Of a stretch of DNA of 64,000 nt, positions 1-60,140 are shown piece after piece. This stretch comes from Bolinopsis microptera. Its lineage: Eukaryota; Ctenophora; Tentaculata; Lobata; Bolinopsidae. The stretch lies in contig NC_087081.1 in assembly GCF_026151205.1 (NCBI RefSeq), positions 8,179,246 through 8,243,245 of the forward strand. The letters are read 5' to 3'. Positions within the stretch are counted from its first letter, which is position 1. Every line of letters begins with the position of its first letter. Made by a program: the position numbers and the translations under genes. The notes under the pieces were generated by a model that was not told where the DNA came from, did not search any database, and saw only the letters and a program-made list of their open reading frames with translations.

Positions 1-2443
1 ATTGTTATTACTAGCCTGTTCCTCGACGATGTCTATTTTATCTCTGTCTGTAACTGGGTCGAACTTAACTATCTCAGGTGCGTACTCATCTCTCATTTGA
101 CTCTCGTACCTGGACATGTTGAAATTTAAATTACATTTAAATTAAGGTTAAGTTAAATTTAAGTTAAATCAAATACCAAAGAGCAGAACTAAAACATACC
201 CACAGTTTTGAAAATCCTACCGAGCATGTTGATGCACATAAAACGTTGTTGCTTTTCTTCTTAAAGACTTCAAGAAGTTTGTTCAACTTAGTTAATATTA
301 CATGTACTAGGTGTTGAGTATGTATTTTTGGGCTTACAGAGAACAATCTCGGTCAGTTAATTCATCTCCACTTTCAGAATATTTTGCGAATTACTAATCA
401 TAGGCAATTTTCGAAACCGCGTTTTACATTTAAACAGAGTATGCTGAGATTCTAGATATAACTGCATGTCAATATTTTTACAGTAGTAAAGTACGCCGAC
501 AAACTTTCTCAAGTAAACTTAACGAGTTTTCTTGAGCTGTACGTGCCAATATTATTCACGATGCTCAGAAGTTTATATCGCTACCTTGAGTAGCAACAGT
601 TGTAGCTCCTTGTAGAGAATCATCTATATCGTGCAGTATAAATATAAAAGAAAGTTTTTTAAAGAAGGCAAGTTGTGCACAATAGCTCATAGGATCGGGA
701 TTAAAACTTGATTGTATTTTGCATGGAAGCAATTTTAAATTAAAGTGAATAAATTGGACCGTGCTAAACATGATAAGTGTGTTTGTAGATTTGCATCTTG
801 CTTGGGTGGTGGTCGCCCAAGTGATATAAAAACGTGACACAAGGACAGTTTACTTAATCGGCCTCCCAAGTACGCTCCCACATCCAGAAAGTTTTATATT
901 TCCTCCCAGATGCGTTTTTTCTAAATTCTGTGGCCCACAAGTGCTTTGCTCGCAAGTTTGTCTTTTTTTCTGTGGCCCACTCGTTTCGCAAATTTTTAAC
1001 ACTGGGCCAATTCACAAGCAGGGACGTGGCCAGGTTTTTTCTTTGGGGGGGGGGGGGGCGTCGGCGAGCGAAGCGAGACTACTAGTCCAATCCAGCTGCG
1101 CAGCGAGCGAAGCGAGCAAGCTGTGGCAGGGGTCTGGGGGCGCAGCCCCCAGCGGGGTCCAGGGGCGGAGCCCCTTGGCGGGGGCCAGGGGGGCGCAGCC
1201 CCCCGGAAATTTATTTCGAAATAGGGTGTTTTAGACGACATTTGGCATTAAAGAAATTTGTAGGACAGCAATAGACTGGGATTGAAAAGAATCAAGTACT
1301 CACGTAAATTTTGTAACTTCACAACAGCAATCTGTATTCTCCAATCAGAATATTTCACTGTGTTCCAAAACTGACAGGATGTTCCTCTTTGATTTTTATA
1401 CAATCGAAATGTTTTCTTCAAAAATTTCTTCAATTAATTTGTCTTTATTCCTAAAAAATATTTTGAAATTTAGGAGTAACTTCTCAAAAATTTCCTCTTT
1501 TTCTCAAAAATTTCCTCTATTTCCTTTTATTTCCTCCCAGGCTGCCTGGCAAGATGGCGTGTTTCTGGATGTGGGAGTACGCTCAAATATTATTGGAGCT
1601 TTTCCAACTTTAAGATAATATGGGCGATTTGAATACTTATTGATGGTTCATTCAAGAAATATGCTAGTTGAAATTTTGACACTACGTTGAAATATAAATA
1701 CAAAATACATCCGAACTAAAAAGTTGTACTCACCCTTCCATCACTTCTTTAGACAATGTCCTCTCGAACTCAATAATGAACCTGAATTATCAAGTATTCA
1801 AACTTTAGAGCAAGAAAACAACATCAATCATCACACCAGTGCAAAGACAGGATCACAGTCGGTTGATTTATTTGAAATTGAGTATATTCAATATATTGAC
1901 AGCAAATTTGAGTCGTCATATTTGCAAAAGATATCACAAACATACAACAACCCATCTTATGAAACATACCTAGCTCTATCAATTCGAGCGAACAGCTCAG
2001 CTTTCTCGAATATCCTAGAGTAAGAATCCGCCATCAGAGCGATAAGGAGATTAAGAACCACTACGCAAGACAAGTAGATCCAGATCACTGAGAGGAACAT
2101 CCACCTGGTGAAATATGTGGTAAAATATGAGGTGAAATAGGTGGTGAAATATGTGGTGAAATACGTGGTGAAATATGAGGTGAAATACTTGGTAGATTGT
2201 TGAAGTACAGAAAATGGTTTGAATTAATCAACTTTACTTTACTTTTATAAAATTCTGTCAGTGCTATACAATTCAATTAGAAAACAGGATGGGAGGAACT
2301 CATCATATAATTTTAAAAAATCTCACCACTCGGGGTAAATAGATCTGTCCAAGCCATCAAGGTACTCATAATCAATCAGGACCATCCGCAAGACGACGAA
2401 TATGGTTTCGTAGAAAGTTCTGGGGTCTCTTGAATCAGTCTCA
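1..2443 (-). CDS. Channel pore, S6 and C-terminal tail exons
   Basis: Exon 2443-2327 carries the pore helix and selectivity region (FYETIFVVLRMVLIDYEYLD, then a short loop RSIYPE). Exon 2104-1970 carries S6 (FLSVIWIYLSCVVLNLLIAL), MADSYSRI and FEKAELFARIDRA. Exon 1781-1734 continues FIIEFERTLSKEVME, and the exon at 109-1 encodes an acidic cytosolic tail (YESQMRDEYAPEIVKFDPVT) still open at the left edge. All phases agree (2/2/2/2). The usual glycine-containing filter of TRPV channels (of the G-x-G-D type) is not visible; the equivalent position reads MVLIDYE, so ion selectivity may differ. The gene's stop codon and 3' UTR lie to the left of the window. Confidence 0.87.
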
Positions 2444-5400
2444 CTGCGGGATTTTAATATGCTGGCAGGACTGTTAAGTGCTGTTTGGGAGGATCACAAA
2501 CATCATGCTAATTTGCTTCAAGCCCAGAAAGGGAGCAGCTTTAAAATGAAGATTTATGCAAAGAGTTTGTTCTTCTTTTAAGAGACAAATCACACTTGAA
2601 GTAAGGAAGTTTCATTTAATGAAAGTTAAGATATTTAAAAGAATTTTCGAGCCGTGAAGGAAATAAAGTTGTTATAGAAAGATTCTGGGGGAAAGTAATG
2701 AGGTTTATATCTGAATATTATTAAAGGTATTTTATCAATATAATTTATGATGGCTTTAAAGCATAATGATCAAGCAAACTATGTTAGATGATTTTGTATT
2801 TTCTGTTAAATCTTTGCTAGCTGCGCCTCCACAGATTACTGGAGGACTGTGGAATGCATAATGATGCATAATGATGCACAATGCATAATAATGCACAATG
2901 CATAATAATGTACAATGCATAATGATGTACAATGCATAATAGTGCACAATGCATAATAATGTACAATGTATAATAATGCATATTATACACTGCTGAAGTA
3001 CTTGTGGCTATGAAACATGCTCCCAATAACCAGTGATTTGTGTGCTCAAAAGACGCTGTTAAGCTATTAAAGGCTAGCCCGCTAGTTGTTCAATCCGGCT
3101 CCAACTAAATAACTAAATAAGTTCGAGAATCGAAGTTTTAAAAAAAGTAAAAACAATCCGGTATGGAAATTTATGGGTTTAGGGCTATCATTTCAATTCG
3201 TTTTTTAATAATTAAAAGCAAATATATGCCTGTCATTAATATGAAAACTAGGTAAAAAGCATCAAATAAATATTAGTATTTTCTAGAAACGAAAAGTCTA
3301 CAGTCCAGTCTGAACATATCTTAAAAACAAAAGAAATCCGGCAAAGTGCTTAAAACTTTAAAACAGTTCGCGAATCTACGATCAGGCAACGAATTGCACA
3401 ACTAGTAATTACAGTCAGATTCAGTGCAAGTAGGTGCTCCTCAAAGCATAAGAATAAAGTTTATGTGTCTTTATATCGGTCGATTTAAAGTCAGTTGAAA
3501 AGTCAGTTGAAAATATGATTGATCAACACTTTCTATGTTTCTCCTCTATAATATCTAGATTTTAGGTTTACTCTTTAAGTAGCTATTGTTGTGAAAGAAG
3601 GAATCCACAACTTGTATCGAAGAAATACCGATTTTCAACCAACTTATCCATCAACCAATAAAAAAATGTACACACATCAAGGGTTTCATGTTGAACATGT
3701 AAATACATGAAAAGTGTTATCTGAATCTGAACTGTGGGGGTAAAAAAGGAGAAAAAAGGACGATTATTTTACCCTTCAGAGTGGAGGTGCGGTCGGGTGA
3801 TACTGTAAAATTAAGTTAGTAAACATGCGGTCCTAACTGCTGTAATCTTTAATTCTATAGATACAATCTATAGATAGATTTTATCTGGGTGTAAAACTTT
3901 GGATTCCATGCTTTTAGTCGTTTTTGTTGCTTGAATTCAAGACTAAAATACCTTTAAAATTTCGGTTCATCTCATAGTTTTCTCTCAGTTGCAGAGAAGC
4001 TCTTCGTGCCAGAAATTATTAGTTCATGCTAAAATTTGCTAGTTAAGATAGCTGGCTTTATCAAATGTGGCTGATCTATTAGAACTCAATAAGAGCTGCA
4101 CCAGGAAGTTACAATGCGAGGCAGATCAACTTATGCGCATAATGCATAATGCATAATGCTGCATAATGCTGCATAATATAATGCATTAATTGCTGCTGCT
4201 GCTGTCTATGCATGCTGCAGTTCCCTGGTCTGATCTGTTGTGTCATATTAGATGTGTGCCGCATTATAATTACCCTTCAAATTCGTCCGATAATCCGCTG
4301 TAGTTGAAAAAGTTAAGAAGCAGTATTACTAGCTAGTTACTAGGTTACTAACTGGTAACCAGGTTACTAGCTGGTTACCAGGTTACTGTCTGGTATTTAG
4401 AGAAGAAGCTAGGTATTTACTATTTAGCTGTTATTCAGTTAAGAAGGGTTTGTTATTTAGTTAATGTCTTTCACGTGTCAGACCTGTTAGAGCTCTTCAA
4501 ATAGCACAATATAGGATTTAGGTATTTTCCGTATTTTCACTTAACGGTTAACACTTTAACACAGCACGTACACTACTGCGTGCAAATATTCTGTCTGCGT
4601 GCAAATATTCTGATATGCGTGCAAATATTCTAACTGCGTGCAAGTATTCTTTCTGCGTGCAAATATTCTGTTTAAGATTTGATCTATTTATGTTATACAT
4701 TTATAATTGTGTAATTTATTATATTCGTAAACATTGACTGACTAATAAACCAGTCCCTAAACATAATACACATATTTTTAATCTATATAATATAGATTAA
4801 AAATATGCAGTTTACAATAAAGAAGACAGGTATAATTACTAGCGTAAAGCAGCAGCTCAAAGGATTCAGCACATTTAGTACGGCTGTCGTTAGCAGCTTG
4901 AAAAACAGCAGAGTAAAAGCAATGCTCTTTTTATAGAACTATTATATCTAGATATAAAATTGCATTAAAAAACTATATATGGTTAGTTGGTGTATCTAGA
5001 TGAAGACAATTATTTTTTAAAGTTAGTACTTGTTATCATAGTTGTGCATCTAATTTAAAGTTTACTACTATAGCGAAGTAGTGAGGTGAGTGAGTTCAAA
5101 ACTTCAAAGGTTACCCGAAATGACTAAAAGTAAATTTAGAGTATGCCAATTGCCAACTAATTTTGAGCGGTTCTTGACTGAAGGGTTAAGTTCATATCAT
5201 CGCATAGGACTTTGCTTAAACTGAGCATAATTATTCATAAATATTATGAATTAATACATTACAGCTTAAGACAGCTGTGATAGACTGTCTTTTTTGTCAA
5301 ATGAGAGTGTGCGAAAAAATTGAACGATTCCAAGCAGGCATATTATGTGAAAAGGAAACATCCAATTTGCTGTTCAATTTGTTGTTCACCAATAACTGTC

Positions 5401-8400
5401 TCACTATAATTCATGGTTTGGTAAATGCATGCCCAAAGTACCTTTAACAAGGGCTTGGAAATTAGTAAGAGGGATTGGAAAGTGGAAGTGGCCTCCATAG
5501 ATTCAAAAAGGAGAATGGCTTCTATTATTAAGGTGGGTACATAGCTTTGAGAGGGTCCTCTTTGGATGATCTTCCTATGACAAGGGACCCTACGTTACGC
5601 CACTGCTAAAAACCTTGGGTCCGACATATTTTTTGAATTATAAAACGATATCAGTTAAGTCTATCTACAGACTTACAGAGAAACCTTAGCGGTTGGAACC
5701 TTGGTGCTTCTGTGAAAGGCTTTTATGGGTCTCGCAGACAGCCAGGTGATCGTCCTCGCCGTCTGCAAAAGGCTATTTATAACTAGAGGATAGTTGCTAT
5801 AACTAGAGGATAGTTGCTATAACTACAGGATAGTTGCTATAACTACAGGATAGTTGCTATAACTACAGGATAGTTGCTACTTGCTACTTGTCTTTGCTAC
5901 TTGCCTCTTCACGGATGCTAAATGTCTCCAGAATGGCCCTGGGTTCCATCATGATAATGCTAGATGCTTATGGTGGTGTGCTGAGCTCCTGGTCTGGGAA
6001 TGACCAAGGTTTTTATACTGTCTGGTAACCAGATCTCTGCTACTTGGTTACCAGAACTCTGCTACTTGGTAACCGGATCTCTGCTACTTGGTTACCAGAA
6101 CTCTGGAGCCACTAGGGTGGAGGATGGTGCCACTGTGATAGGCTGATCTTTCTCTACTTCTGAGTGGTGTCCCTGCAAAGAAAGATCCTCGGGTGCTTCT
6201 TCGGCGTCCTCAGAAGGCTTCTAATTACTACTAGAAGTAGGTGGTTGCTACTTGCCTTTATACGGATGCTTGGTGCCTCCAGTAATGGTCCTGGATGCTA
6301 GATATGCTGTTATAAGCTTAGAAGGGTGCTAGATGCCGCCCGGTCTAGCCTAATAAACCGGATGTTGTCTCTGCTTGTCTGGTAAAACCTGTCCCGTGTA
6401 GCTGCAACCTGAGAGGAGGATGGAGCCTCATCGAAAGGCTGGGGTATTTCCACAACTTTGGGGGCGCCGTGGGAGTGCCTAACTCTAGAGGGGGTTGTTG
6501 TTGTTAATAGTTTAGAGAGAGCTGACGGGATCCTGATACAAGTGTTTTAGCAATGTATAAGATTAGCAATGGGCGAAACTTTTGAGTTGGACTTTGAAGC
6601 GAATTAGGAATAACTGTTCGACATTCAGATTGGTCAAATTCAGTGGTGAACAACAGGTTTAAGAACAGGTTTAAATTGGATGCTTCACTTTACAATAAAC
6701 ACATAATATGCTTTATAACACGCATACTCACATATGAATGAGCTAATGTCGCTAATAAATCGCTAATGAATCCCTATCAAAAGTTAATGAAATTTGGCTT
6801 GTTGCCAGCCATAAAACAGCGTATGTTTTGGAAGAAAAGGTTTTAAACTGATTTTCCCAGCATAACCCATCACATATCAATGCGCCAATTCTTTTGTAGC
6901 TGCTAAAGGCTGGCCCAAAAAAGATGCTTAAAAACTAAATTATCGATTGGCATACGCTGAAATTTGAATAAATCATCATTATAAGCGACCTCTGAAGTTT
7001 TGAATGTTAGCTACATATTGTGCAGCAATAATGCCCTAAATTGGGGGCGGGGGCGTTCAGCAAAAAACAGTATCCATGATATAAGAAGCTGTTGGAAGTG
7101 TTGAGCTATATGTAGCGCCGAGGCGTGAGCTAGCAACTAGACCAGTATTTTGGGGGGGCTAGTTATGCATAGCTCACACCCCTGATTTAGCATAGCTCAA
7201 ACCTTAATCGTGTATCACCGCGGTGTGGGATCAAATTGCTAAAATGATCGGTAAACGTTAGTTTTAGTTTCTGCATAGTGAATTGGTAGATTTAAATTTG
7301 CCCGCTTTCTGTTAGTGCAAGGAGGAATATGTTAGCAAAGCTGTAATTTTATAAACTAGTTATTAATACACTTTAATAGTCTTCTCTTTGATTACTGAAC
7401 TTGATGAAGTAAGTGTAATTTAAAGAAGAGTAAAACTTACTTGCTGTAAGTCGTCTTGTAGAAGACACACACGGCTGGCACAAATAGTGTTGCAAACATG
7501 GTACCGATAGTGCTAAGATCACCCATGACATACTTCATGTATACCACGAAGGGTCCGACCTGACAAGAGTCATCGTTAAATCTTAAATCATTAGTAGATC
7601 TCTTTTGTTATATGGCTTACCTCGGAAAAGTTCAAACAATTGTCAGTCAACACTTTACAGTTATAGCACGTGTGAGGTCGATGAAGTCATTTGATAGAAT
7701 TTAGTATTACCATAGTTACCTTCTTAGTGATCTGAAGCTTGAGGAAACATGACAACCACATCAGGATCATAACGATGGCACCAAATAAATCAGTAGCATT
7801 TATGAAAAGCTGGACGGAAGCATCCAGTTCATCATTGGCACTGTTCATCCTGGGTTCCTTCACTCTTTTAGCACCTCTAACAAAGATGATAACCTTCCCG
7901 ATGATGAAGAAAAGGAGGAGATTGTCTACGAGAAAGTCAATGAGGACGGCTGGTGACGATTTCACATCGTCCAAGAACGTTAGTTGTCTATCACCGTACC
8001 TCTTTTTTAGGAAGTTTTCGAGGTCCTTCCCCTTGAAGTGAAGAGAATTAACCTCCCTCTGATAAGTGTCATCGAACAGTTTCTTTAAAAAGTTTAAGTA
8101 CTTAAATTTCTCTTTGAGGAGTCTGACATTACTGATGAACCGCCACACATACGCGGACATGGCAATGATTATGGACAAGGCGTAGACGACGTCCACGGTC
8201 TTCAGTTCGTCTATGAAGGAATGGGGCTGAACATACACAAAACTCCAGACACTGAGGAAAACGCCCAGGAATATGAACTTGTGGGTGGCATGTTTCTTGG
8301 CGTAGAGCTGCCATTTTGCTTTGGTGAGACGGTCGAAGATGGAGTGCTCTATCAGACCCATGTTGGCTAACCATACCAGGTAGTGGTAGAACGAGCAGAA

Positions 8401-11400
8401 CATGTTCCGACCTGAGGGGATTGTACGGTTTAGTTGTTAGGGGATACGGTTTGGTTGTTAGGGGATACGGTTTAGTTGTTAGGGGATACGGTTTAGTTGT
8501 TAGGGGATACGGTTTAGTTGTTAGGGGATACGGTTTAGTTGTTAGGGGATACGGTTTAGTTGTTAGGGGATACGGTTTAGTTGTTAGGGGATACGGTTTA
8601 GTTGTTAGGGGATACGGTTTAGTTGTTAGGGGATACGGTTTAGTTGTTAGGGGATACGGTTTAGTTGTTAGGGGATACGGTTTAGTTGTTAGGGAATATG
8701 GTTTAGTTGTTAGGGGATACGGTTTAGCTGTTAGGGGATACGGTTTAGTTGTTAGGGGATACGGTTTAGTTGTTAGGGCATACGTTTTAGTTGTTAGGGG
8801 ATACGGTTTAGTTGTTAGGGGATACGGTTTAGTTGTTAGGGGATACGGTTTAGTTGTTAGGGGATACGGTTTAGTTGTTAGGGGATACGGTTTAGTTGTT
8901 AGGGGATACGGTTTAGTTGTTAAGTTGTTAGGGGATACAGTTTAGTGAAACGTGACTTAATCTCATTAGTAACCAGTCCTCCGATACTTTTTCTCTCTGA
9001 AGTATTATAAAAGCCTTTTTTGGCAAGCTTCAAAACTGAAAGTTTAAGTTTTTTTTAGATTCCAAATATTTGTAAGTACCAGATTTCACTTGGGACGGAG
9101 TGATTAAATACATTTTACATCTATCATTCACTTAACAACAGTTAAGGGCTTTAGAAATAGCTCTTTTAGGTCTGGAAAAAATTAAAGTTGTGTTTCTCGT
9201 GCCATGTTCCCCTTGGTGCGGAGTGTTTAGATACAATTAGTTCTTTGTCAATAGTGTGCGATAGAAATTCAAGCACTTTGGCAATAATATAATGCAGCAG
9301 CTTATCATTAAGGCCAATGAATAGTGAATAATACAATTAGGCTGATGTTTAGTCTTATTACTGCAAAATATTTGACGTTATTTGACGTTAATTTTTACAT
9401 GCTGATGCCAAATTCTAAAATACCCAATATTTTATCCAATAAGTATTTCGTTTAACTCTGCCCTCATCATAGTCTTAGTTGCATACTAAACACTTAAACC
9501 CTTTTAAACATTGTTTTCCGGATAAAATAGGGTCGATTTTGAGTGTCAATCACTGTAAAATGAGATTTTGTGTGTCAATCCCTGTAAAATAGCGTGCCAC
9601 CAGCTTGATATCATTTTGTCGCCGACATATTTACACCTCTCGCAAAACTAATAATTAAGTAATTAGATTTGCCAAGACATGCTCAGGTTTGAAAGCCTAG
9701 CCATTGCTGAGTTACAAAGTTAATAGTGTACACCTGCAACCAGATAGGAAATGATGCAACAAAATTGGACGAGCTATGAGTTAGACTAATTGGAGGAGAT
9801 ATGAGTCAGGCTAAATGACTAATTGGACGAGATACAGTCGTACTGATTTGACGGGATAAAGTTAGGCTCGGCTGGATACGCTGATTAGTGTACGACAGTT
9901 CAGGAGTTATGGCTAATATCGCAATACTAGGTGGTAACCACCTAGAAATTCACAAGGCATTATTTGCCCTAATGGACAGCTGCACGCCGGTTACTTAAGC
10001 TGGGTTGGTATTTGTGCTTTTCTTTCACAAATAAGACGAAGCCCTACATGATAGTTGATACGCAGATATAAGGGTTTGGCTTATATTAGCTAGACTTGGT
10101 TAGACCTTTTTCATGCCAGAGTAAAGTATGTGATAATATAAAAGGGTGAAATATAAACTTGCAATTACTGAAGCCTAGTACGTTAGAAACATAACTACTA
10201 CAGTGTCACGCCTGCGCCAAGACGTCTTCAAGTTCAAGCCATGTAGCCAATCAATATTGCAATAAAACTTTCATGCGGATAATATCATGTTGTCATGGTT
10301 ACAAAGATGATATTGTTGCCATAGTTACCCGGACTGCCGACCAGTCGGTCGAGCTGGTAATATCTTTCACCCTGATACACATCTTCTGTAACAAACCTGC
10401 AAAAAGTGTCGTACAAAACGTGTCTTGTCTTACAAGTTACACCTTATCACTAGGGGCGTGTAGAATAACATGGAAATAATAATTCAAAGTTTAAGCTAAT
10501 ATATATGAACTTAGAGATTTTGTCTGACTGACTTATCGAACACTTCTCTGGTAATGGTAGGCATGGTGTAGGCTATCCTCATCAGACCCATTATCCCTGA
10601 TTTGTCCTCAATGCAGGTGTCGGCACCCTGCAGGGAGTCGTGTAATGTTTAGAAAGTAGTAAATATTAACCTGGTTATCATCATGATTGAGGTTATAAGT
10701 CTCTCTAGCATACGATCTGGTGGTGCAAGTTATTCGATCTATTTGATATTACAAAACATCAAAAATCTTTCAAAACTTACTTTATCAACAAGATAAGCGG
10801 AAATGTCAGATCTTGCGTAGTAGCTGGACACAATGATGGGGGTATGGTTCATGTTGTCCAGTACGTTTATATCTGCACCCTTCTCCACTAGCAGCTCCAT
10901 CACTTTCATTGCACCAAACTGAGCTGAAATATAACAGCTGATTATTAAGTATTGATGAAACCGTCTTTTAGTGTCTTCTGTAGAATAGAAACAAAATGTT
11001 TCAACTAAATCGCTACGATCTGGTATTGAAAAGATCGATGTAATGCATTAAAAAATTAGGAGAAGACTCATGACTACAACTCAGGCTGCGGTATCTTTAT
11101 ACTAATGAACATCTTCGCTTTTAGTCAGAAGCAGATAGTAGGATAATACGTTACATTGTTGTAATTGGGAACAGCCAAAATTTCTACTCTTTAGTCAAAA
11201 ATTCCAATTGTAACTGAGAGCGCGTGCTTCAGCCTTCCTTTGTAATACTAATAACCAACACGCCTGAATATCTAATTTTCCTCGGAAAAAGCCTCTGACA
11301 AAATTGAATTTATCTTGGCTGCAGACTATTTTAATCACGAAGGAAAAACCTTCTTCTCATTATGAGACGAACAGCTTTCTGTTTAAAGACTAAATTCCTT

Positions 11401-14400
11401 GCAAAAACGTGCCGTTGTAATTTCATCAAGAACATAACACTTTTGATGTCTACACTCATGTGCTTTAACCAACGAAGCCTAGTAACATCTGTTCACCAGA
11501 TTTTCCAAAGCCATATCTTATAAGAGCTATCCTACTTAAAAATAGTTATTACACGGGTGGTGGTAACTTGTTGAGACTTTTTCAAAGGTAACGCCATATC
11601 TCGTTAATAAGTCTCGTTTGTAAGGTGGTTGACACGAGTACTAGTAGGAGAGAAGTTTGCAAATAATAAGTGAATGGTATGTGAATTATGTACTTAGGAT
11701 ATTTGAATCATGCACGTTAAGTATTTGAATTATGTGCTAACCAGCAATATGCATTGCGGAGCGTCCGGTCTTTTTACATCTGTAGTTGATATCCGCGTTA
11801 TTCTTTATAAGCGTGTCCGCTGTATTGGGCTTCTGTGCTATAGCTGCAAGAAATGTTATTTTAGATAAACATAAAAGTATTTGTATAATAAACATACATT
11901 TGAAATAGCGGAAACGTTTATTGATGAAGTAGGAATTGTACATTAGTTTTTGCGGCCTAGATAGGTTTGTTAAAAGTATGGATTAACTTAGTGAAGTTGA
12001 ACCTACCGAAAAGTTTGGACTTACTGCAAGCATTACTGTGATCAAAGCATTTCTGTAGTCTAAGAAAAAATTTGATCAAAGAAAAAATTCGGGCGTACCA
12101 AGAATATTTCAACATCTGCCAGGTTATTTTAAACAAACCTGCATAAAATAGGGGGGTGTAACCGTCAAAGTCCTCAGCATTTGGATCACCACCGCAATTT
12201 ATCAACTTCTCCACTTCTTTTTTATCACAGTATTGGGCTGTTAATTGTTAATATAAGCAACTAAATTGGAAAGTATTCGTAAAATTTGCAGTATGTTAAT
12301 AAAATAATAACAAAGTGTAGGTAATTTTTATGCAGTGTCAAAAGGAAGTATAAAAAAGTAATACAAACCGCAGAAACAAGATTAGTTACCACCAGATATT
12401 TTATAAAAATCTTAACCTACCTGTATTATAATTTATGCTTATATCAATTAAATAAGGATAAACTAAACCTGGTTGAGCCAGGGGAACGGCCCACAGCAGG
12501 GCAATCAGCGATGTACCCGAAATCCTAACATAAACTTACTTGTAATGTGGAGAACAGTCTGACCATGGTAATCCATCAATGCCAAGTCGTGTGACTCAAC
12601 AAGGGCGTTAAACTTGTCGTCCTCCACCTGATTGGGTGGTTTTTATTGATAAACAGTTGATCGTTTCATTGGAATCACTGAACTTAATTTGGGGAAACAT
12701 GACTATTATGTTTGATAGGAAGTTTACGAAAGTCAGATATTGGTACAGTTATTGCTGCCACTGCTAGCTAACCCTAACTGTGCCATGAGTAGCAAAGAGT
12801 TACCAAAGAGTTACCAAAGAGTTACCAAAGAGTTACTAACGACTTACTAAAGAGTTTCTAACGACTTACTAAAGACTTACTCACCTCAACTGTGCAGTAA
12901 GGGGCCATGGTTAGAACAGCTCCTTGATCTAAAGCACATTGCTCCAAATATCTGAATAAGGCGTAGGGGTCATCTTGGTTCTCAAGTTGGGGTGGGATAT
13001 CTGAAGGTACAGATCTGATTAATTCCTTATATGGTAGTGTTACCATGTCAACATCACCTTATATGGTAGTGTTAACATGTCAACATCGCCTTATATGGTA
13101 GTGTTACCATGTCAACATCACCTTATATGGTAGTGTTACCATGTCAACATCACCTTATATGGTAGTGTTACCATGTCAACATCGTCTTATCTGATGATTC
13201 TTTCAAGAAAACTTATAATGTTTTTCTGAACAAAATTCAGTGATACCAGCATTGTAACATTGTCATCACTGAATGTTTCAGAAGAAATGATAAATTTTCT
13301 TAAAAAAATGAGTGTAGACAGGAAATGTTCAAATCAATTTCCTCCGACCATTAAGAGTCATCAAAGTGGTTTTTGAAGACACATGAATCCCGTTCATAGT
13401 TTCTAAACTTTATAACAGCAGATTCTTGAAAATATTTCCATAATATTTTCTTGTACCCGTAATCAATATCTAATCACAGAAATATTTGCCGTATAAATGC
13501 CGCTATAATGCACACAATTGTTATACATATCCCATATTATGTGCAACACACATTACAATGTTACACCTTGCTGCTCATTATCTTGCCATTTAATAAACGC
13601 ATCCGCAAGTTCTCAAGTGTATTTGACAATTAGATTGAGATTTACTACTCCAAATACCATTACTCCAAATACCACACGTAACATGTTGGGTGCAAATAAC
13701 AGTGTTGTAAAGAATCTATTGCTGCCCACCAAGGATATGTGTAAGTGAGTGCTGAGCTAACTGCAGGCTAGCTTTTGTAAGATGTCCAAATTAGCTGTGA
13801 TCGAATGTTCAGATCTAACATTAAACCACGAATTGGTTCAATCAACTACGACTATGTAGTCTCCACAGTGCTATGTAGTGAAGCAATATAAGTATATAAT
13901 AATGATGTAATATAATGTAACTATACAACAAAAGAATGATTAGCACTATCTCGCCATGGAAGACTAAGGAGTTATTTAAGAGTTACTGAAGAGTTCCTAA
14001 AGAATCACAAAACAGTTACTAAAGAGGCTGACCTGTTATGGGTAATCGTTGGGGTCCCTGAGAGTCTTTCAAGACATCTTTGAAGAGTGATATCGCAGTT
14101 TGTAACTGAGGAATATTATATTAGAGCACATGGAAAAAAAAAACATTATAACATGGTTCAGATAGGATAAACAATTTCGTATTTTTACAATAACTTATAA
14201 GAAAGAAAAGCTTGCAAGAGGCAGTGTAGCGCGATGGCTAATTCTCACAAAGTTTTCACAGCATGAGAGTAAGTTAAAACACCTTCTATTATTATGTCAC
14301 GTTATATATTATTTTAATATTTTGTTATAGTAATTATTTTATCAATATATAATGGAGTACCGCTGATCTTGACTCCGTCCACCTCTTTCTCCTCTTTGCA

Positions 14401-15919
14401 TCTGCTCGATCAAAGAAGTCGTAGACATAGTAGAAGAGTCTCCAGCAGTTCCACTTCCACGTCTCCACCCACCTACACAACCTCCCACAACACCATATAT
14501 CCCTGTCTGGATCTGCGTGGTGCCGTAGATACCTTCTTGCTTTCTGCCTCAGCCTATACGTTATATTAAACAACCTATCCTCGTTCAGTAGGATTATCCG
14601 GAAGAACTTTTCAATAACCGTCTCCTTCGCCTCCTCCACTTCAGGAATAGAATCAGTATAATGAGAACTAACAACAGACACCACATCCTCCAGCAACACA
14701 TCAGGGGTGGTTCTAGGATGCTTGTATTCATGTCTGTGGAGCTCAGGGCTGGGGAGTAGGTGAGGAGATTGGAGGTGATGTAGGTAGGGTGGGAGGGGTG
14801 GTGTCCTGGAGGGGGAGGGTGGGACAGGTGGGATTTGGTGGAAGATGCTGTAGCTGGTTTTTGATTTCTTACGTAGTCGTGGTTTTGGAATTGCTTCACC
14901 GTAATCTTCTGGAGCTTGTGAATCACCTATTTTACTTTTGCGTCGATTGGGTTTTGCAGGGGGTTTATTTGATTCTATCTGTTCGATGAATTTTGATGCA
15001 AGACCCAGTCTGTTGTATTTCATCGAAGGCACAGTATCTCTGCCTTCATCACGAGGCAGGGGTCTTTGTCGAGTAATATCAGATTTATGCTTGGAACTAG
15101 GGTCATGGGATGATCTTGGAGAATCTGGATATGATGAAGAATGTGAAGCATTCGAAGAGGGAGGATTTGAATTGCAATTCAGTGATGAGGAAGAAGGTGT
15201 TGTTGAAGTTGGTAAGCTAGAAACTGAATAAAAATCGCTCAAGTCCGTGCTGGACGGACTCAAGTCCGTGCTGGACGGATTACTTGCTCTTGACATTGCC
15301 TTTAGAAAAGACGGACTAAAACTAAAAACGGAAAATATAATGCAACTATCAATACTAGACGAAGTCGGATACACGTTATTGGTACGTGTGTTGCATCAGA
15401 TATAAATTGTGCAACCCCTGTAATGAATTGCTGAATTGATAGGACAGCACGCTTAACCTAATTTAAGCGGTTTTATTGTGAATATACTATACACTTCAAA
15501 CGGCAATAATAGATTACACTCCAAATATACTAGACAACTATATATATATATACTATAATATATATGTCTGCACATTTCATTGCTTGCAACAATATTACAA
15601 TAGCTCTGGAAACGCCTTGGAGAATTGGTAAAACTCATTTCAATAACTGGACGGATGTTTTCAATCCGTTTCCCAGTTTGATAGATGTAGTTGCCATTTT
15701 CTACATGGCATAGAATTTCATCGGAGAGGCCAAACAGAGTTTGTTTTGCGAATGTAAACCATAAATTAGGGTCATATCCGACAAGTTACTCACAAATACA
15801 ACAGATTTGCTTCGCGTTTTAGACTGGCTCCGAGTAGAAATAGATTCTTGAGACTTAGATATTTCTTTGAAATGTCTGTTGTTTTCTCTGAGTCGCCTTA
15901 ACAATGCTGAATGGTGCAT
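1..15919 (-). CDS. TRPV-like cation channel, 16 exons, 3' end outside window
   Basis: Exons in transcript order: 15919-15794, 15299-14361, 14105-14033, 13000-12885, 12627-12540, 12237-12139, 11843-11742, 10923-10781, 10627-10533, 10396-10329, 8411-7720, 7559-7441, 2443-2327, 2104-1970, 1781-1734, 109-1. Every junction has GT/AG and the phases agree, giving 1023 codons with no stop. Seen: ankyrin-type repeats at about residues 435-615 (DYHGQTVLHIT, DFDGYTPLFYA, TGRSAMHIA, NMNHTPIIVSS), then S1 about 660-678, S2 690-709, S3 771-795, S4 824-841, VGPFVVYMKYVMGDL leading into S5, a pore helix (FYETIFVVLRMVLIDYEYLD), and S6 ending NLLIALMADSY followed by FEKAE. Known: the GPFVVM-like S4-S5 linker and the LNLLIALM S6 with EKAE after it are hallmarks of TRPV-type subunits, plasma or ciliary membrane tetramers passing cations. 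Inferred: a divergent TRPV (or TRPV-like) subunit. The two N-terminal exons are less certain than the rest. Confidence 0.88.
862..1585. mobile_element. Composite inverted-repeat element with GC-rich stem-loop core
   Basis: Lies in the last channel intron seen. Outer inverted repeats CTCCCACATCCAGAAA (876-891) and TTTCTGGATGTGGGAG (about 1561-1576) bracket the segment. Inside, 1047-1215 is very GC-rich: a G run of about 14, then successive palindromes of the form GGGGGCGCAGCCCCC, AGGGGCGGAGCCCCT and GGGGGGCGCAGCCCCCC at regular spacing. The family is not identified. The G-run/stem-loop part may be a separate insertion inside the older inverted-repeat element. Confidence 0.5.
2105..2190 (-). 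repeat. 12-nt tandem array ending in the S6-exon splice acceptor
   Basis: On the minus strand about seven 12-nt units of the form NTATTTCACCNC run head to tail. The last unit reads ATATTTCACCAG and is itself the 3' splice site of the S6 exon. A single C-to-G change at the end of the unit creates the AG. The array supplies both polypyrimidine-like and A-rich context. Confidence 0.85.
2444..7440 (-). other. Large channel intron, repeat-rich, no exon seen
   Basis: This 5-kb intron separates the S5 exon from the pore exon. I saw no coding exon in it. It holds several tandem repeats: a 17-nt array (2874-2981), GTTACTAGCTGGTTACCAGG-type motifs (4319-4400), a 19-20-nt CTGCGTGCAAATATTCTG array (about 4573-4675), a near-perfect AT palindrome (4769-4806), a 20-nt ATAACTACAGGATAGTTGCT array of five copies (about 5778-5884), and four copies of a CTGCTACTTGGTTACCAG-type unit (about 6000-6110). 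Confidence 0.7.
2874..2981. repeat. 17-nt minisatellite
   Basis: About six copies of a unit like ATGCACAATGCATAATA in the large channel intron between 2444 and 7440. Confidence 0.85.
7720..8411 (-). CDS. Channel exon 11: pre-S1 helix and S1-S4
   Basis: This is the largest membrane exon, 692 nt. It begins inside a Gly codon shared with the exon at 10396-10329. A pre-S1 segment (DRLTKAKWQLYAKKHA) has the K-W-x3-(F/Y)A pattern seen before S1 in TRPV channels. Hydrophobic spans follow: HKFIFLGVFLSVWSFVYV, VDVVYALSIIIAMSAYVW, AVLIDFLVDNLLLFFIIGK and LFGAIVMILMWLSCFL, which match S1-S4. The S4 region has no regular arginine ladder, as expected for TRPV. The exon ends LQITKK at a GTAACTATGG donor and joins VGPFVVYM in phase 0. 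Its acceptor (CCCCTCAG) sits at the edge of a 21-nt minisatellite, reported separately. Confidence 0.9.
8418..8941. repeat. 21-nt minisatellite abutting the S1-S4 exon acceptor
   Basis: About 24 copies of a 21-nt unit (plus-strand core GTTAGGGGATACGGTTTAGT). On the coding (minus) strand each unit contains CCCCTAAC, i.e. a pyrimidine run plus a CTAAC branch-point-like motif. The unit nearest the exon changes to ATCCCCTCAG, which is the splice acceptor at 8411. The multiple of 3 keeps a plus-strand frame open for 174 codons, but that frame is not a gene. Confidence 0.92.
12789..12884 (-). repeat. 11-nt donor-like tandem array at a channel intron 5' end
   Basis: Directly after the real donor (GTGAGTAAGT) of the exon 13000-12885, eight 11-nt units follow on the minus strand. 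They are of the forms GTAAGTCTTTA, GTAAGTCGTTA and GTAACTCTTTG, and each begins with a 5'-splice-site-like hexamer. The array lies wholly within the intron. Confidence 0.85.
13024..13185. repeat. 32-nt minisatellite next to a channel exon acceptor
   Basis: Five copies of a 32-nt unit (core CCTTATATGGTAGTGTTACC, then ATGTCAACAT). The array ends about 24 nt from the acceptor of the exon 13000-12885, on the intron side. Copies are nearly identical, suggesting recent expansion. Confidence 0.9.
13963..14032 (-). repeat. Diverged 11-nt donor-like array at the preceding intron 5' end
   Basis: After the donor GTCAGC of the exon 14105-14033, five to six 11-nt units follow on the minus strand (for example GTAACTGTTTT, GGAACTCTTCA, GTAACTCTTAA). 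They share the consensus GTAACTCTTTA with the array at 12789-12884 but are more diverged, so two consecutive introns of one gene start with the same repeat type. Confidence 0.75.
14361..15919 (-). CDS. N-terminal exons 1-2 of the TRPV-like channel
   Basis: Exon 1 (15919-15794) starts at an ATG preceded by an in-frame TGA and ends at a strong GTGAGT donor. It encodes 42 basic, Ser-rich residues. Exon 2 (15299-14361, 313 codons) is Ser/Thr/Pro-rich with proline runs, then changes to an acidic/hydrophobic stretch and a Trp/Cys-rich block (DIWCCGRLCRWVETWKWNCW, FYYVYDFFDRADAKRRKRW) before the junction to the ankyrin exons. The phase-0 acceptor chosen (TTTTCTAAAG) and the donor (GCG then GTACTC) are both weak, so edges may shift, and exon 2 could alternatively begin at ATG 15374 or 15290 region as its own start. 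Downstream phase agreement and same-strand adjacency are the reasons for joining it to the channel. No domain is recognised. The low-complexity part is probably disordered and cytosolic. Confidence 0.6.
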
Positions 15920-47760: not shown

Positions 47761-49191
47761 TTGGCAGCAGGAGAAGAGGAGAAAGCAGCAGTCAGCATCC
47801 AATCCCGATACAGAGGTTATAAAGCAAGAAAACATTTGGGTCTGCATGCTTCCAATATTTTACTTGAAAAAAAAAACAAACAAAAAAAACATTTGTAACA
47901 AGATTACGATTAGACCTCTTTGAAATGTGACAATTTCGACACACTTCTAGGACTATTAGACACTAGACAGAGTAGGTTTTAAAGCGCTAATGTTCTCTGA
48001 ATTTCTCTGAGAACTACAATGTCTTTTTTGACTTTTTGCGGAGCAATATTAGTGAAGAAGTCTAATTGTATTCGACAAACGTACAGCTGTAGAGGGATGA
48101 AACAAATTTTTTCAAAATCAAATCTTTCAGCCGCAGAACCAGCAGCAGCCGCTCCCGTAGAAGCCGCTCCAGCAGCCGAAGCTGCCCCAGCAGAAGCCGC
48201 TCCTGCAGCCGAAGCCGCCCCAGCAGCCGAAGCCGCTCCAGCAGCAGAAGCTGCCCCAGCAGCCGAAGCCGCTCCAGTAGCCGAGGCACCAGCAGCCGAA
48301 GCCGCACCAGCAGTCGAAGCTGCACCCGAAGCCGAAGCCGTACCAGTAACCGAATCCGCACCAGTAGCCGAATCCGCACCAGTAGCCGAATCCGCACCAG
48401 TAGCCGAAGCTGCACCATCTGCCGAAGCCGCACCAGCAGCCGAAGCTGCACCCGCTGCCGAAGCCGCGCCAGCTGCCGAAGCTGCACCAGCTGCCGAAGC
48501 CGCACCAGCTGCCGAAGCCGCACCAGCTGCCGAAGCCGAACCAGCTGCCGAAGCCGAACCAGCTGCCGAAGCTGCTCCAGCTGCCGAAGCCACAATAGCA
48601 GCCGAAGCTGCTCCAGCTGCTGAAGCCGCACCCGCTGCCGAAACACCAGCAGCAGAGGCACCAGCGGCAGAGGAACCAGCAGCAGAGACACCAGCAGCAG
48701 AGGCACCAGCACCAGCAGCAGCAGAGGCACCAGCAGCAGAAGCCTCTCCAGCAGCAGAAGCCGCTCCAGCAGCAGAAGCCGCTCCAGCAGCAGAAGCCGC
48801 TCCAGCAGCAGAAGCCGCTCCAGCAGCAGAAGCAGCTCCAGCAGCTGAAGCCGCACCCGCTGGCGAAGCCGCCCCAGCAGCTGAAGCACCAGCAGCAGAG
48901 GCACCAGCAGCAGAGGCCGCCCCAGTAGCCGAAGCACCAGCAGCAGAAGCTGCACCAGCAGCCGAAGCTGCACCAGCAGCCGAAGCCGCACCCGCAGCCG
49001 AAGCTGCACCCGCTGCTGAAGCTGCACCCGCTGCCGAAGCTGCACCCGCTGCCGAAGCTGCACCCGCTGCCGAAGCCGCACCAGCAGCCGAAGCTGTCCC
49101 TGCTGCAGCCCCAGTAGCAGATGCCGCCGTCGAAACGCCGGCAGCCCCCGCCGCAGCGCCTCCCGCAACGGAAGCAAAACCATCTGAGTGA
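47761..49191 (+). CDS. IQ-motif protein with long (AAPAAE)n tail, 5' exons unknown
   Basis: Exon 47761-47839 follows TATCTTTCAG and encodes GEEEKAAVSIQSRYRGYKAR, a clear IQ motif (IQxxxRGxxxR), the usual binding site of calmodulin or myosin light chains. Its donor (G/GTCTGC) is weak but phase 1 fits exon 48131-49191, which follows AATCTTTCAG and encodes 352 residues of nearly pure Ala/Pro/Glu in hexapeptides (AAPAAE, with APAAEA and PAAE variants) to a TGA. The tail is acidic and presumably disordered. IQ followed by an acidic Ala/Glu-rich tail recalls neuromodulin (GAP-43)-type membrane/calmodulin proteins; this is only an architectural analogy. The start codon is not located. A speculative phase-0 first exon is MCCVNWCNKS near 44502. 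Confidence 0.65.
48131..49160. repeat. 18-nt coding minisatellite in the Ala/Pro/Glu exon
   Basis: Units of the type GCCGAAGCTGCACCAGCT repeat about 50 times with synonymous GCA/GCC/GCT and CCA/CCC variation and a few 15-nt units. Because the period is a multiple of three, frames on the other strand also stay open. Confidence 0.93.
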
Positions 49192-56429: not shown

Positions 56430-59400
56430 TGTAGTAGTAGTAAACCCGCGATGGGGTGGCATGTGCCTCAATAAAAATATTACAATCATTTATTATTATA
56501 TCAATGTATCATTAAATATTTCAAAAATATCAATAACGTATGGTTGATCCTTCACACTTGGTAAAATATATAAAAATAAAGTTAATCTACACTAAAGAAT
56601 AAATAATCTATATTATATAAATCAAAAATATTAACTCCCCATCTTCATGTAGTCATTTATCAAAGCGGTAGAAATCCAAGTAATTTTAGTACGCGGTGCG
56701 CAAGGAATTTCGTTTTTTTTTTAAAATGTGTAGGCAAGATAAGCCTAAGTGTGGCAGTGAAAATTGAAAAATAAGTTGCAGAATAAATTGCAGTGACTGA
56801 CTGTCAAATGCATTTTCGCAGTTCATTTATTTGACTGCACAGTGCACTAACGTTTAGGATTCTTACAGCTGTTATATTTTGCTAATATTTTGTTTAAAAG
56901 TTGTAAAGGACAAAGTTCTTGTCCGTCCACGAAAGGTTTTCTAGGTCAAGTTTTTGTTTGTCCAGTAAGTAACGTACAATGTTGTCCTTGTATGAATTAA
57001 TAAACTTATCTTGTAACTTAGGTACGTTGAAGGGAAGGATTTTGTTTATTTCGTTTATCGTGTTGTTATATAATCGTGGTCCTACGTTAGAGATGCTATA
57101 ATCGGTGATCCGTAATCTGTTGAACTTAATTTCAAAATACTTTGGATTTCTCCTTTCCGTTTGTCTAAGCGGTGATTTTTCAAATATACTACAGATACTC
57201 GATGGTGCTACTCCCATATAAACCTTGTGCATCAAAGTTAGACAGCTTTTAGCAATGAGGTTAGGAAGAGCCAAAATTCCTATTTTGTTGAAGATGGATT
57301 TTGTGTGAGATGGTAGTTTACGTTTTTCTTTGTCGTAAAAATAGTTATGATAATCTGAATCAGTGGCGCGAATAGCTTTCTTTTGAGCAGAGAATAAAGA
57401 CTGAATGGAATTTAAAGATTTAGTACCCCAAACAGTAGCGCAGTAATACAGGTGAGATTGAATTAAACTATTGTATAGCATTTTTTGAGCTTTATTCGGA
57501 ATGGAACTTTTAAGTTTCATCATTACGCCTGCATTTCTGGATATTTTAGTCTTTAACTGTTTAATGTGCTGGCTCCAGCTAAGTTTTGAGTCAATAATGA
57601 CACCTAAAAATCGTTCATGTTCACTTTTCACTAGTCGCTGTCCTTCTATACTAATATTTATATCCTCTGGTAATCTGTTAGTGAATATCATGTATTTAGT
57701 TTTTCCTATATTGAGTTTAAGACCGTTGTTTTTAACCCATGTCTGTACAGTATTTAATACTCTGTTTGCACGCATGTTCAGTTCAGTGTACGTGTCGGCA
57801 GAAACGATGATGTTTGCATCATCAGCGAAGAAAATATAATGGGCTATATCGCTTACATTTGCAAGGTCGTTTATGTAAATAATGAACAATATAGGACCAA
57901 GAATGGACCCTTGAGGAACTCCATGTTCCAATCCCATTTTTTCTGAACTGCAACCGTTGACGTGAACATACTGTTTCCGGTTAGTTAGATAAGACTCAAA
58001 CCAGGATAAGCTAAGGCCTCTTACACCATAGTGCTCCAGCTTATGTAGCAGTATCTCACTGTCTACTAGGTCAAACGCCTTGGAGAAGTCAAGAAGCAGT
58101 AATGCTGACACTTGCTTCCTTTCTAGAGCTTTATGTATGTTAAACTGAGCTTCAAGCAACGCATGTTCACAACTGTGACCCGATCTAAAACCAAATTGCG
58201 ACGCATATAGAATATTACGTGATTTTAGGTGCTTTACTAAACGTGCATGCATTATTTTTTCGAATATCTTTGAGAAGCAGGACAAAAGTGAGATTGGTCT
58301 GTAGTTTGTAATTTCGCTGCGCGATCCTCCTTTATGGAGTGGGATAACCTTAGCAAGTTTGAGCTTTTCGGGGAATACTCCTTCGTGAAGGGAGTGTGAG
58401 ATCAGGTGATTAACTACTGGAGACAGCACATTGCAAACCTTTTTAAGAGGCTGTATATTCATATCTGAAGTCGATTTGTTCTTAAGATCATGTATGATTT
58501 CAGCAATTTCGGAGGGCGAGGAGTCCTCCAGCTCCATATCAAAATCACATCGACTTGATTGGGGAAGAGAATGTCCTACTGATCCTGCACCGCGAACCAG
58601 ATTGTTTTCGCTCTTTAGGTTCTCAGCTATATTAGTAAAATAATCATTAAAACTGTCAGCTATATCTTGTGAGTCGGTTATAACTCTATTTTTATAGTTA
58701 ATCTTACTTATTTTTATTTTTTCTTTTGATTTCTTGTTTAATATTTGATTAATCATTTGCCATTGTAATTTGCTATTGCTCGCATGCTTTTTAAAATATG
58801 ATGCGTAATACTTCTTTTTCGCAATATCTACTTGTTTTTCAACAAACTTTTTCATATGCTTATAAGTTTTTTCATTTTTTTCAGTAGGCTCTTTAACAAA
58901 GGATTTATATAGTTGGTTCTTTCGATTGCATGCACATTGAAGCCAATCTAATATCCACGGTTTAGAGTTTTTTCTGTGGTTTGATTTTTTCTTTTTAACT
59001 GGAAAACACTCATTATAGACTTCTTCATATTTAGTGTGAAAAGCTTCAAATTTTGTATTTGTCCCGTCAACGTTGTGTAAAAAATTCCAATCAATAGACG
59101 CTATTTTCTCCTCAAAACGAGCGATTTTCTCTTCATTTATTACTCGGTTTGATGATTCACAAGTTTCATTTTTCAATTTATTTCCTATTCTATTAGTGTC
59201 GAGAAGTATGCCGGTAAATGTGGCAAGGTGATCAGATAGCGATTCAGTTATAATGCCTGACTTTGTTATAGCATGGCATTGGTTTACGAAAATGTGATCA
59301 ATAAGTGTAGCACTGTGACAAGTAATACGAGTTGGTCGTGATATCGTTGGTGCGAATCCATACTCTGCAAAAATATCAACATATTTAGTAGTATGGTCAT

Positions 59401-60140
59401 TTACGCCGTATTCTAATAGATTAATATTGGTATCACCTAGAAATAATACGTTTTTGTTGCTATGTCGCGCCAAATCTTTTAGGGTGTTTTCCAATTTTTC
59501 TAAGTAACTGGGGACATTACCACTGGGAGACCGATACATATTGCATAGTATGACGTTTTTGTGGCCATTTTGAGCTATCTCTATTAACTGAAATTCGCCA
59601 ACGTTTGGATCATCTCTATAAGATAATTCAGATCGTGCAGTGACATCAGATAATTCACAGAGATTCTTGTTTACATAGGTTACTAGACCACCGCCCTTAC
59701 CAGAGTCCCTTGCGGGAGCCTGAATAAAGGGGGGATGAAAGCCTTCTAACTCTAATTCTTTTCCTTGAAATGCCATACTTACAACCGTGCAGTTTGTTTC
59801 GTTGAAACACAGAACATCAAATTTTAGGTGCTGTTCAATTTCATCACGTATATTAGAGATTGCTTTGCTCAAAGATCGAATATTAAGAGATTGAACTTTA
59901 AATTCATAAGGCCTACTCGTGTTGATTTGCCGTGGTTCGTAGTATTTACAGCTATTTAGTACATCTGAGCAGTTATCCCATGGATTAAAGTTTAAGTCAT
60001 TGTTTTCTTCAAAAGTATTACCTATATAATTAGAGTCATGGTTTCTATGGTATGGGTTAAATTTTGCGCTATTCTCGTAATTACCGTGTACGGTGTATAA
60101 TTGTCTAGGTGATACCTTTGTTAATTTGTTGTCTTGTCAA
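56430..60140 (-). mobile_element. Non-LTR (LINE) retrotransposon, Jockey/CR1-like group
   Basis: Inferred element extent. The coding frame ends at 56894; the region beyond is a 3' UTR ending CATCGCGGGTTTACTACTAC with a (TAC)n tail at about 56430, which is a common type of LINE 3' end. The frame is open upstream to a TGA at about 60140 but has no in-frame ATG there, so the 5' end is probably truncated or begins nearby; no ORF1 (gag-like) frame is seen. Target-site duplications were not found by eye. Confidence 0.85.
56894..60137 (-). CDS. LINE ORF2: APE endonuclease and reverse transcriptase, intact frame
   Basis: About 1081 codons with no stop. Endonuclease part: VQSLNIRSLSKAI, FDVLCFNETNC, GGGLVTYVNKNL, NMYRSPSG, FLGDTNINLLEYG, ATLIDHIFVN, SLSDHLATF (the terminal S-D-H of APE-type nucleases). 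Reverse transcriptase part: KVIPLHKGG, NYRPISLLSCFSKIFEKI, SQFGFRSGHSCEHAL, LLDFSKAFDLVD (catalytic D), GVPQGSILGPILFIIYINDL, FFADDANIIV (catalytic DD), and the thumb-like LGVIIDSKLSWSQHI. Length and order fit ORF2 of Jockey/CR1-group LINEs, which nick DNA and copy their RNA at the target. No start ATG is seen in the upstream 90 codons; a downstream ATG or another initiation would be needed. Confidence 0.92.

Follow-up and report, generated by a model that had tools for sequence, protein, structure and literature searches.

Tandem repeats anchored at 5′ splice sites in a TRP-like gene and in further genes of the ctenophore Bolinopsis microptera

In a 64,000-nucleotide (nt) stretch of Bolinopsis microptera DNA (NC_087081.1, positions 8,179,246 to 8,243,245), hereafter the window, a minus-strand gene with ankyrin repeats and an ion-channel exon in a TRP-like layout contains two consecutive introns, starting at 14032 and 12884, which run on from their 5′ splice sites (donors) as head-to-tail 11-nt units resembling GTAACTCTTTA. 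Both arrays are contiguous with the exon-intron boundary, and we regard both as probably being donor-anchored minisatellites. In this reading, tandem duplication would have acted on a short segment that starts at the 5′ splice site or includes it, and the duplicate would then grow and shrink as a minisatellite inside the intron, while the outermost donor, joined to the exon, stays intact and in use. Such an array would be tolerated because the outermost donor is intact and used, so that every extra copy is intronic and would be free to multiply and decay. Donors sampled beyond the window indicate that tandem duplication occurs habitually at donors throughout this genome; the two window arrays are small and old examples of it.

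On the minus strand, the exon at 14105-14033 ends in ..ATAACAG|GTCAGCCTCTTTA and is followed by GTAACTGTTTT GTGATTCTTTA GGAACTCTTCA GTAACTCTTAA ATAACTCCTTA. This array, extending from donor CAG|GTCAGC over 13969-14032, is diverged: Tandem Repeats Finder (TRF) reports 13969-14026 at period 11 with 5.3 copies, 72% match and a score of 46, or as period 22 with a score of 58. The following exon, 13000-12885, ends in ..GTTGAG|GTGAGTAAGTCTTTA and continues with GTAAGTCGTTA GAAACTCTTTA GTAAGTCGTTA and four copies of GTAACTCTTTG, the last of which place the GTAACT core head to tail at 12836-12793. Here the array, running from donor GAG|GTGAGT over 12794-12884, is near-uniform (TRF 12794-12881, period 11, 8.0 copies, 87% match, score 113). 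Nine two-unit matches occur in the window, while shuffles give an expectation of 0.01. The arrays account for 91 of the 257 nt of the 12884 intron and for 64 of the 1032 nt of the 14032 intron, the remainder in both being free of the 11-mer. Two paralogs of the gene, on contigs C9 and C6, are single-exon across the same region and confirm both exon joins (..PITD/IPPQLENQDDPYALFRYL versus PITG/IPKFVSDDTPDPHAAFRYL; TVE/VEDDKF versus PIE/YDESRL). The exon upstream of the first array (14033-14105, minus; LQTAISLFKDVLKDSQGPQRLPIT) was aligned to the C6 paralog L010, and the exon between the two array introns (12885-13000, minus; IPPQLENQDDPYALFRYLEQCALDQGAVLTMAPYCTVE) was likewise placed by paralog alignment. 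An earlier reading of the window from its letters alone, the sequence-only reading, had described two consecutive introns opening with tandem 11-mers, one array nearly uniform and the other diverged, and the sequence, the TRF results and the intronless paralogs bear this out. The first intron bases it had placed at 14033 and 12885 lie one base lower, at 14032 and 12884. The constant 11-nt spacing it had reported applies to the later units, while the opening step measures 13 nt in one of the introns and, with a GTAAGT that overlaps at +4, 15 nt in the other.

The same reading had counted up to eight extra near-consensus donors. We scored the copies with a donor matrix built from 77 sampled donors of this genome, in which the 5th percentile of real donors is 5.4, and this leaves only three downstream copies in the range of real donors, at 12825, 12814 and 12803 (6.3), all of them in the 12884 intron. 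Donor 12884 itself scores 9.6 (79th percentile), with copies in its intron at 1.9-6.3, and donor 14032 scores 7.3, with inner copies at 2.2 or below and none in the real-donor range; the GTAAGT copies reach only 4.3-4.8 because the preceding base is an A. In both introns the outermost donor outscores every copy, and nearly all alternatives shift the frame or add a stop. That every shift changes the frame is correct for most copies but not for the alternative donor 12869, which adds 15 nt in frame (VSKSL), whereas donors further downstream run into TAG. Judging from reading frames and paralogs, the outer donor is probably the one used. The earlier suggestion that the arrays affect splicing finds no support in these scores, with the first donor ahead of all copies, most copies below the real-donor range and most alternatives adding stops or shifting the frame; splicing is presumably little affected, and the window arrays appear to be side effects of local DNA duplication and not functional switches of splicing.

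The case for a tendency of donors in general is carried by a sample chosen without regard to repeats. It comprised 100 exon 3′ ends from matches to kinesin and protein-kinase domains, that is two protein families in one assembly, with introns unseen at the time of choice and 225 nt taken downstream. A donor was called by frame and matrix in 77 of the 100. Counting as strong those arrays with a TRF score of at least 80, and as donor-edge those whose left edge falls at -12 to +6 from the donor, 8 of the 77 donors (10%) have a strong donor-edge array, whereas the array density in the window predicts 0.48 (P=4.6e-8). The density of array starts is 5.5e-3 per nt at donors and 1.8e-4 at +8 to +150 of the same introns, an enrichment of donor over interior that is 30-fold with a TRF cut-off of 80 and 15-fold with one of 50 (P about 1e-6). 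Further arrays in the sample start at +15, +36 and, in one case, +160. The units of the eight donor-edge arrays are unrelated to one another and differ from gene to gene: 53 nt in L112 and in L133, 35 nt in L178, 11/21/32 nt in L157, 33 nt in L143, 13 nt in L122, 21 nt in L159 and 61 nt in L205 (all by TRF). Five of the eight (L112, L133, L143, L178 and L157) include the exon end and the donor within the repeated unit; in L112 (AGCTTACAAG|GTAAGAC.., 53 nt x2), for example, codons of the kinesin SKLTR motif are repeated along with the donor. For five introns more of the downstream sequence was obtained, and in each the array occupies the donor side only and is followed by unrepeated intron; the arrays are therefore not simply whole introns. 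Array coverage, found at 8 of 77 donors versus 37 of 797 window tiles, differs only about two-fold, and the argument therefore rests on array starts and not on coverage. The L159 array, taken together with L212, closes with another copy of the exon end, whose donor (CTACTG|GTAAGT) is better than that at the array start (CTACTG|GTAACT); a donor therefore lies on either side of the array.

Several observations weigh against deriving the window arrays from their donors. Their units start at +1, carry no exon sequence and do not span the exon-intron boundary, and the two arrays share nearly one 11-mer, which is unexpected under independent origins. In the 264.65 Mb of the genome that were searched (the 13 largest contigs amount to about 258 Mb), with the reversed pattern as control, three successive GTAACT units gave 19,318 matches versus 874 regardless of position, and three GTAAGT units gave 7,536 versus 1,744, both counts being dominated by large arrays. 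Among 48 arrays selected by motif, only 6 were significantly coding upstream and 4 downstream (codon-usage score over 75 nt); this array-first test misses short exons, such as that of L110, and the exon-first sample was used in its place. That sample covered donors, and in L133, L143 and L178 the left edge of the array falls where the fetched stretch ends; the true edge may therefore lie somewhat further into the exon. Because the sequence ahead of these three is the matched kinesin domain, the arrays cannot reach deep into the exon; without the three, 5 donor-edge arrays remain versus 0.48 expected, and 5 versus 2 in the interior (P about 4e-4, binomial, hand calculation).

The abundance of GTAACT, which forms the core of a minisatellite type that is very common in this genome and often neighbored by GTTACC or ATGG, gives substance to the rival reading that the window arrays are ordinary GTAACT minisatellites lying at two donors by chance, the resemblance of GTAAC to a donor being a coincidence. 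Besides the excess of GTAACT x3, the degenerate pattern GTAASTNNTTN x3 occurs 182 times, at many unrelated loci, versus 3, most sampled motif arrays lack coding sequence upstream, and a single 11-mer consensus is common to both window arrays. Counts of GTAAGT and GTAACT arrays were considered as proof of a splice origin and rejected: arrays of GTAACT outnumber those of GTAAGT, the stronger donor, and the motif alone is therefore no evidence of such an origin. The sequence-only reading had named occurrence of the same arrays at random places as an observation that would speak against it, and this holds for the GTAACT unit taken by itself, though not for donor arrays generally. The pattern AGGTRAGT-GTAAGT-GTAAGT likewise gave 238 matches versus 8 in the reversed control. 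Some arrays found by motif do lie at donors: in L083 and L100 the array begins at +1 of the donor that follows a coding exon, in L110 it begins after a TLC-domain exon, and the unit of L084 contains a donor together with the end of a C-type lectin exon, as in the five exon-spanning units of the sample. Chance placement has to account for the exact register with two consecutive donors and for a further array that lies 7 nt from a different donor of this gene, and it sits poorly with the strong excess of array starts, with units unrelated to one another, at donors in general; we consider it unlikely, though the most serious of the rivals weighed here. An origin of the two window arrays by donor duplication, rather than as chance neighbors of the common GTAACT repeat, is the reading we infer. 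Growth by duplication of the splice site, as the sequence-only reading had proposed, is supported mainly by the sample beyond the window with its exon-spanning units, and less so for the window arrays themselves, which lack exon sequence and consist of a common motif.

Two further explanations were weighed. The copies might be kept by selection as additional binding sites for U1 or as reserve donors that reinforce or control the splicing of weak introns, as the three donor-like copies of the 12884 intron and the in-frame donor at 12869 would allow; however, the first donor of that intron is strong, the copies of the 14032 intron have decayed, most alternatives add stops, and array donors in the sample look no weaker than others, which makes selection highly improbable. 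Alternatively, the arrays might be scars of intron gain by tandem duplication of a stretch bearing AG/GT, as proposed for amphioxus globin genes. Both paralogs are single-exon where the window gene has introns, and some units begin with GTAAGT and end in AG (L083), but intronless paralogs may equally be retrocopies or products of intron loss, the five introns that were followed further have their arrays on the donor side only, and neither window intron is a duplicated segment whose AG and GT derive from the same proto-site. We judge intron gain to be improbable, if somewhat less so than selection. Under donor-anchored duplication, the duplications may be made by replication slippage or break repair, or through a link to splicing. 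A bolder proposal, which we put forward only tentatively and hold to be rather less probable than its opposite, is that ctenophore 5′ splice sites are mutational hot spots of tandem duplication, where a process tied to transcription, splicing or repair would repeatedly copy DNA that begins at exon ends or crosses them, with about one donor in ten lying in a fast-changing array.

Minisatellites that duplicate exon-intron boundaries are known from amphioxus as mirages, the original report of which is said to be that of Canestro et al. 2002 (NAR 30:2871). They have been described in Adh3, the globins BflGb6 and BflGb9, troponin C and PGBD5; reverse transcription PCR supports normal splicing, length and somatic instability are documented, and a role in intron gain was proposed (PMC3087553, PMC3902484). 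The ctenophore arrays form a genome-wide pattern of that kind, with AG/GT signals repeated without apparent harm. They differ in that the host is a ctenophore in which some 10% of the donors sampled are affected, in that the window arrays start at the donor without exon sequence, and in being known from genomic sequence alone. In humans, a 31-bp variable number tandem repeat of CBS lies across an exon-intron boundary and likewise multiplies a donor, but it is a single locus and its unit is longer. Tandem duplications that carry splice signals also figure in the creation of introns from duplicated AG/GT (Rogers, 1989; Zhuo et al., 2007; Gao and Lynch, 2009; as cited in PMC3087553), whereas the arrays described here lie inside the donor end of introns. 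In the open-licence literature no report of donor-side repeats of this kind in ctenophores was found, and the papers that were found treat repeats across splice sites as peculiarities of a handful of amphioxus genes. Their presence at about a tenth of the donors sampled in a ctenophore means that tandem duplication is either drawn to donors or tolerated there to an unusual degree, which bears on how introns change length, shift their borders and may be gained; a hot spot, if true, would be a source of changes in intron length, of spare donors and perhaps of new introns.

The window gene was traced over 1782-15395 (minus), with Ank_2 matched at 4.1e-21 on the spliced protein and Ion_trans at 8e-4 on exon 1960-2223 (Pfam). 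An intron-by-intron model based on the two single-exon paralogs (L009, C9:10668215 region; L010, C6:6929284 region), for which gain, loss or retrocopy are all possible, places 13 introns at 14360-14106, 14032-13001, 12884-12628, 12539-12238, 12138-11844, 11741-10924, 10780-10628, 10532-10397, 10328-8412, 7719-7560, 7440-2420, 2326-2105 and 1969-1782. Further arrays on the same strand lie close to its splice sites. A 22-nt unit in 2.7 copies lies 7 nt from donor CTG|GTTAGC (11677-11741; TRF, placement test), and the acceptor end of the 14032 intron holds a 32-nt unit in 5.2 copies (13025-13190, TRF score 304), 24 nt from the acceptor, whose intron ends at 13001. The 21-nt unit TATCCCCTAACAACTAAACCG is repeated about 24 times in an array whose end comes within 12 nt of the acceptor ..CCCCTCAG (8412-8946, array 8424-8946, TRF score 956), and the 12-nt unit CATATTTCACCA occurs in 6.8 copies ending at the acceptor ..TTTCACCAG|GTG (2105-2187, array 2106-2187, TRF score 129). 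Of the 20 intronic arrays of the gene, five are found no more than 12 nt from a splice site, which is a donor for three of them and an acceptor for two, versus 0.57 expected (P=1.2e-4), a figure that is an illustration and not proof, the gene having been picked for its arrays. The 21-mer contains a branch-point-like CTAAC and a C/T-rich stretch, and arrays of TTTCAG x3 are three times as frequent genome-wide as the reversed control.

Outside the gene and the window, nearly identical intronless EF-hand genes form large tandem clusters with members about 1 kb apart on C1 (~22.00 Mb), C5 (~17.02 Mb), C13 (~11.09 Mb) and C3 (~3.42 Mb); the one member read, on C1, matches the ctenophore photoproteins berovin (1e-118) and mnemiopsin (2e-117) much more closely than their cnidarian counterparts (about 1e-18), which identifies the animal as a ctenophore. 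Within the window, a long open frame at 48001-49188 (plus) consists of some 53 copies of an 18-nt repeat encoding an AEAAPA-type protein repeat, with other phases also long-open, and a 1,080-codon open frame at 56897-60136 (minus) resembles, by eye, the endonuclease/reverse transcriptase of a non-LTR (non-long terminal repeat) element.
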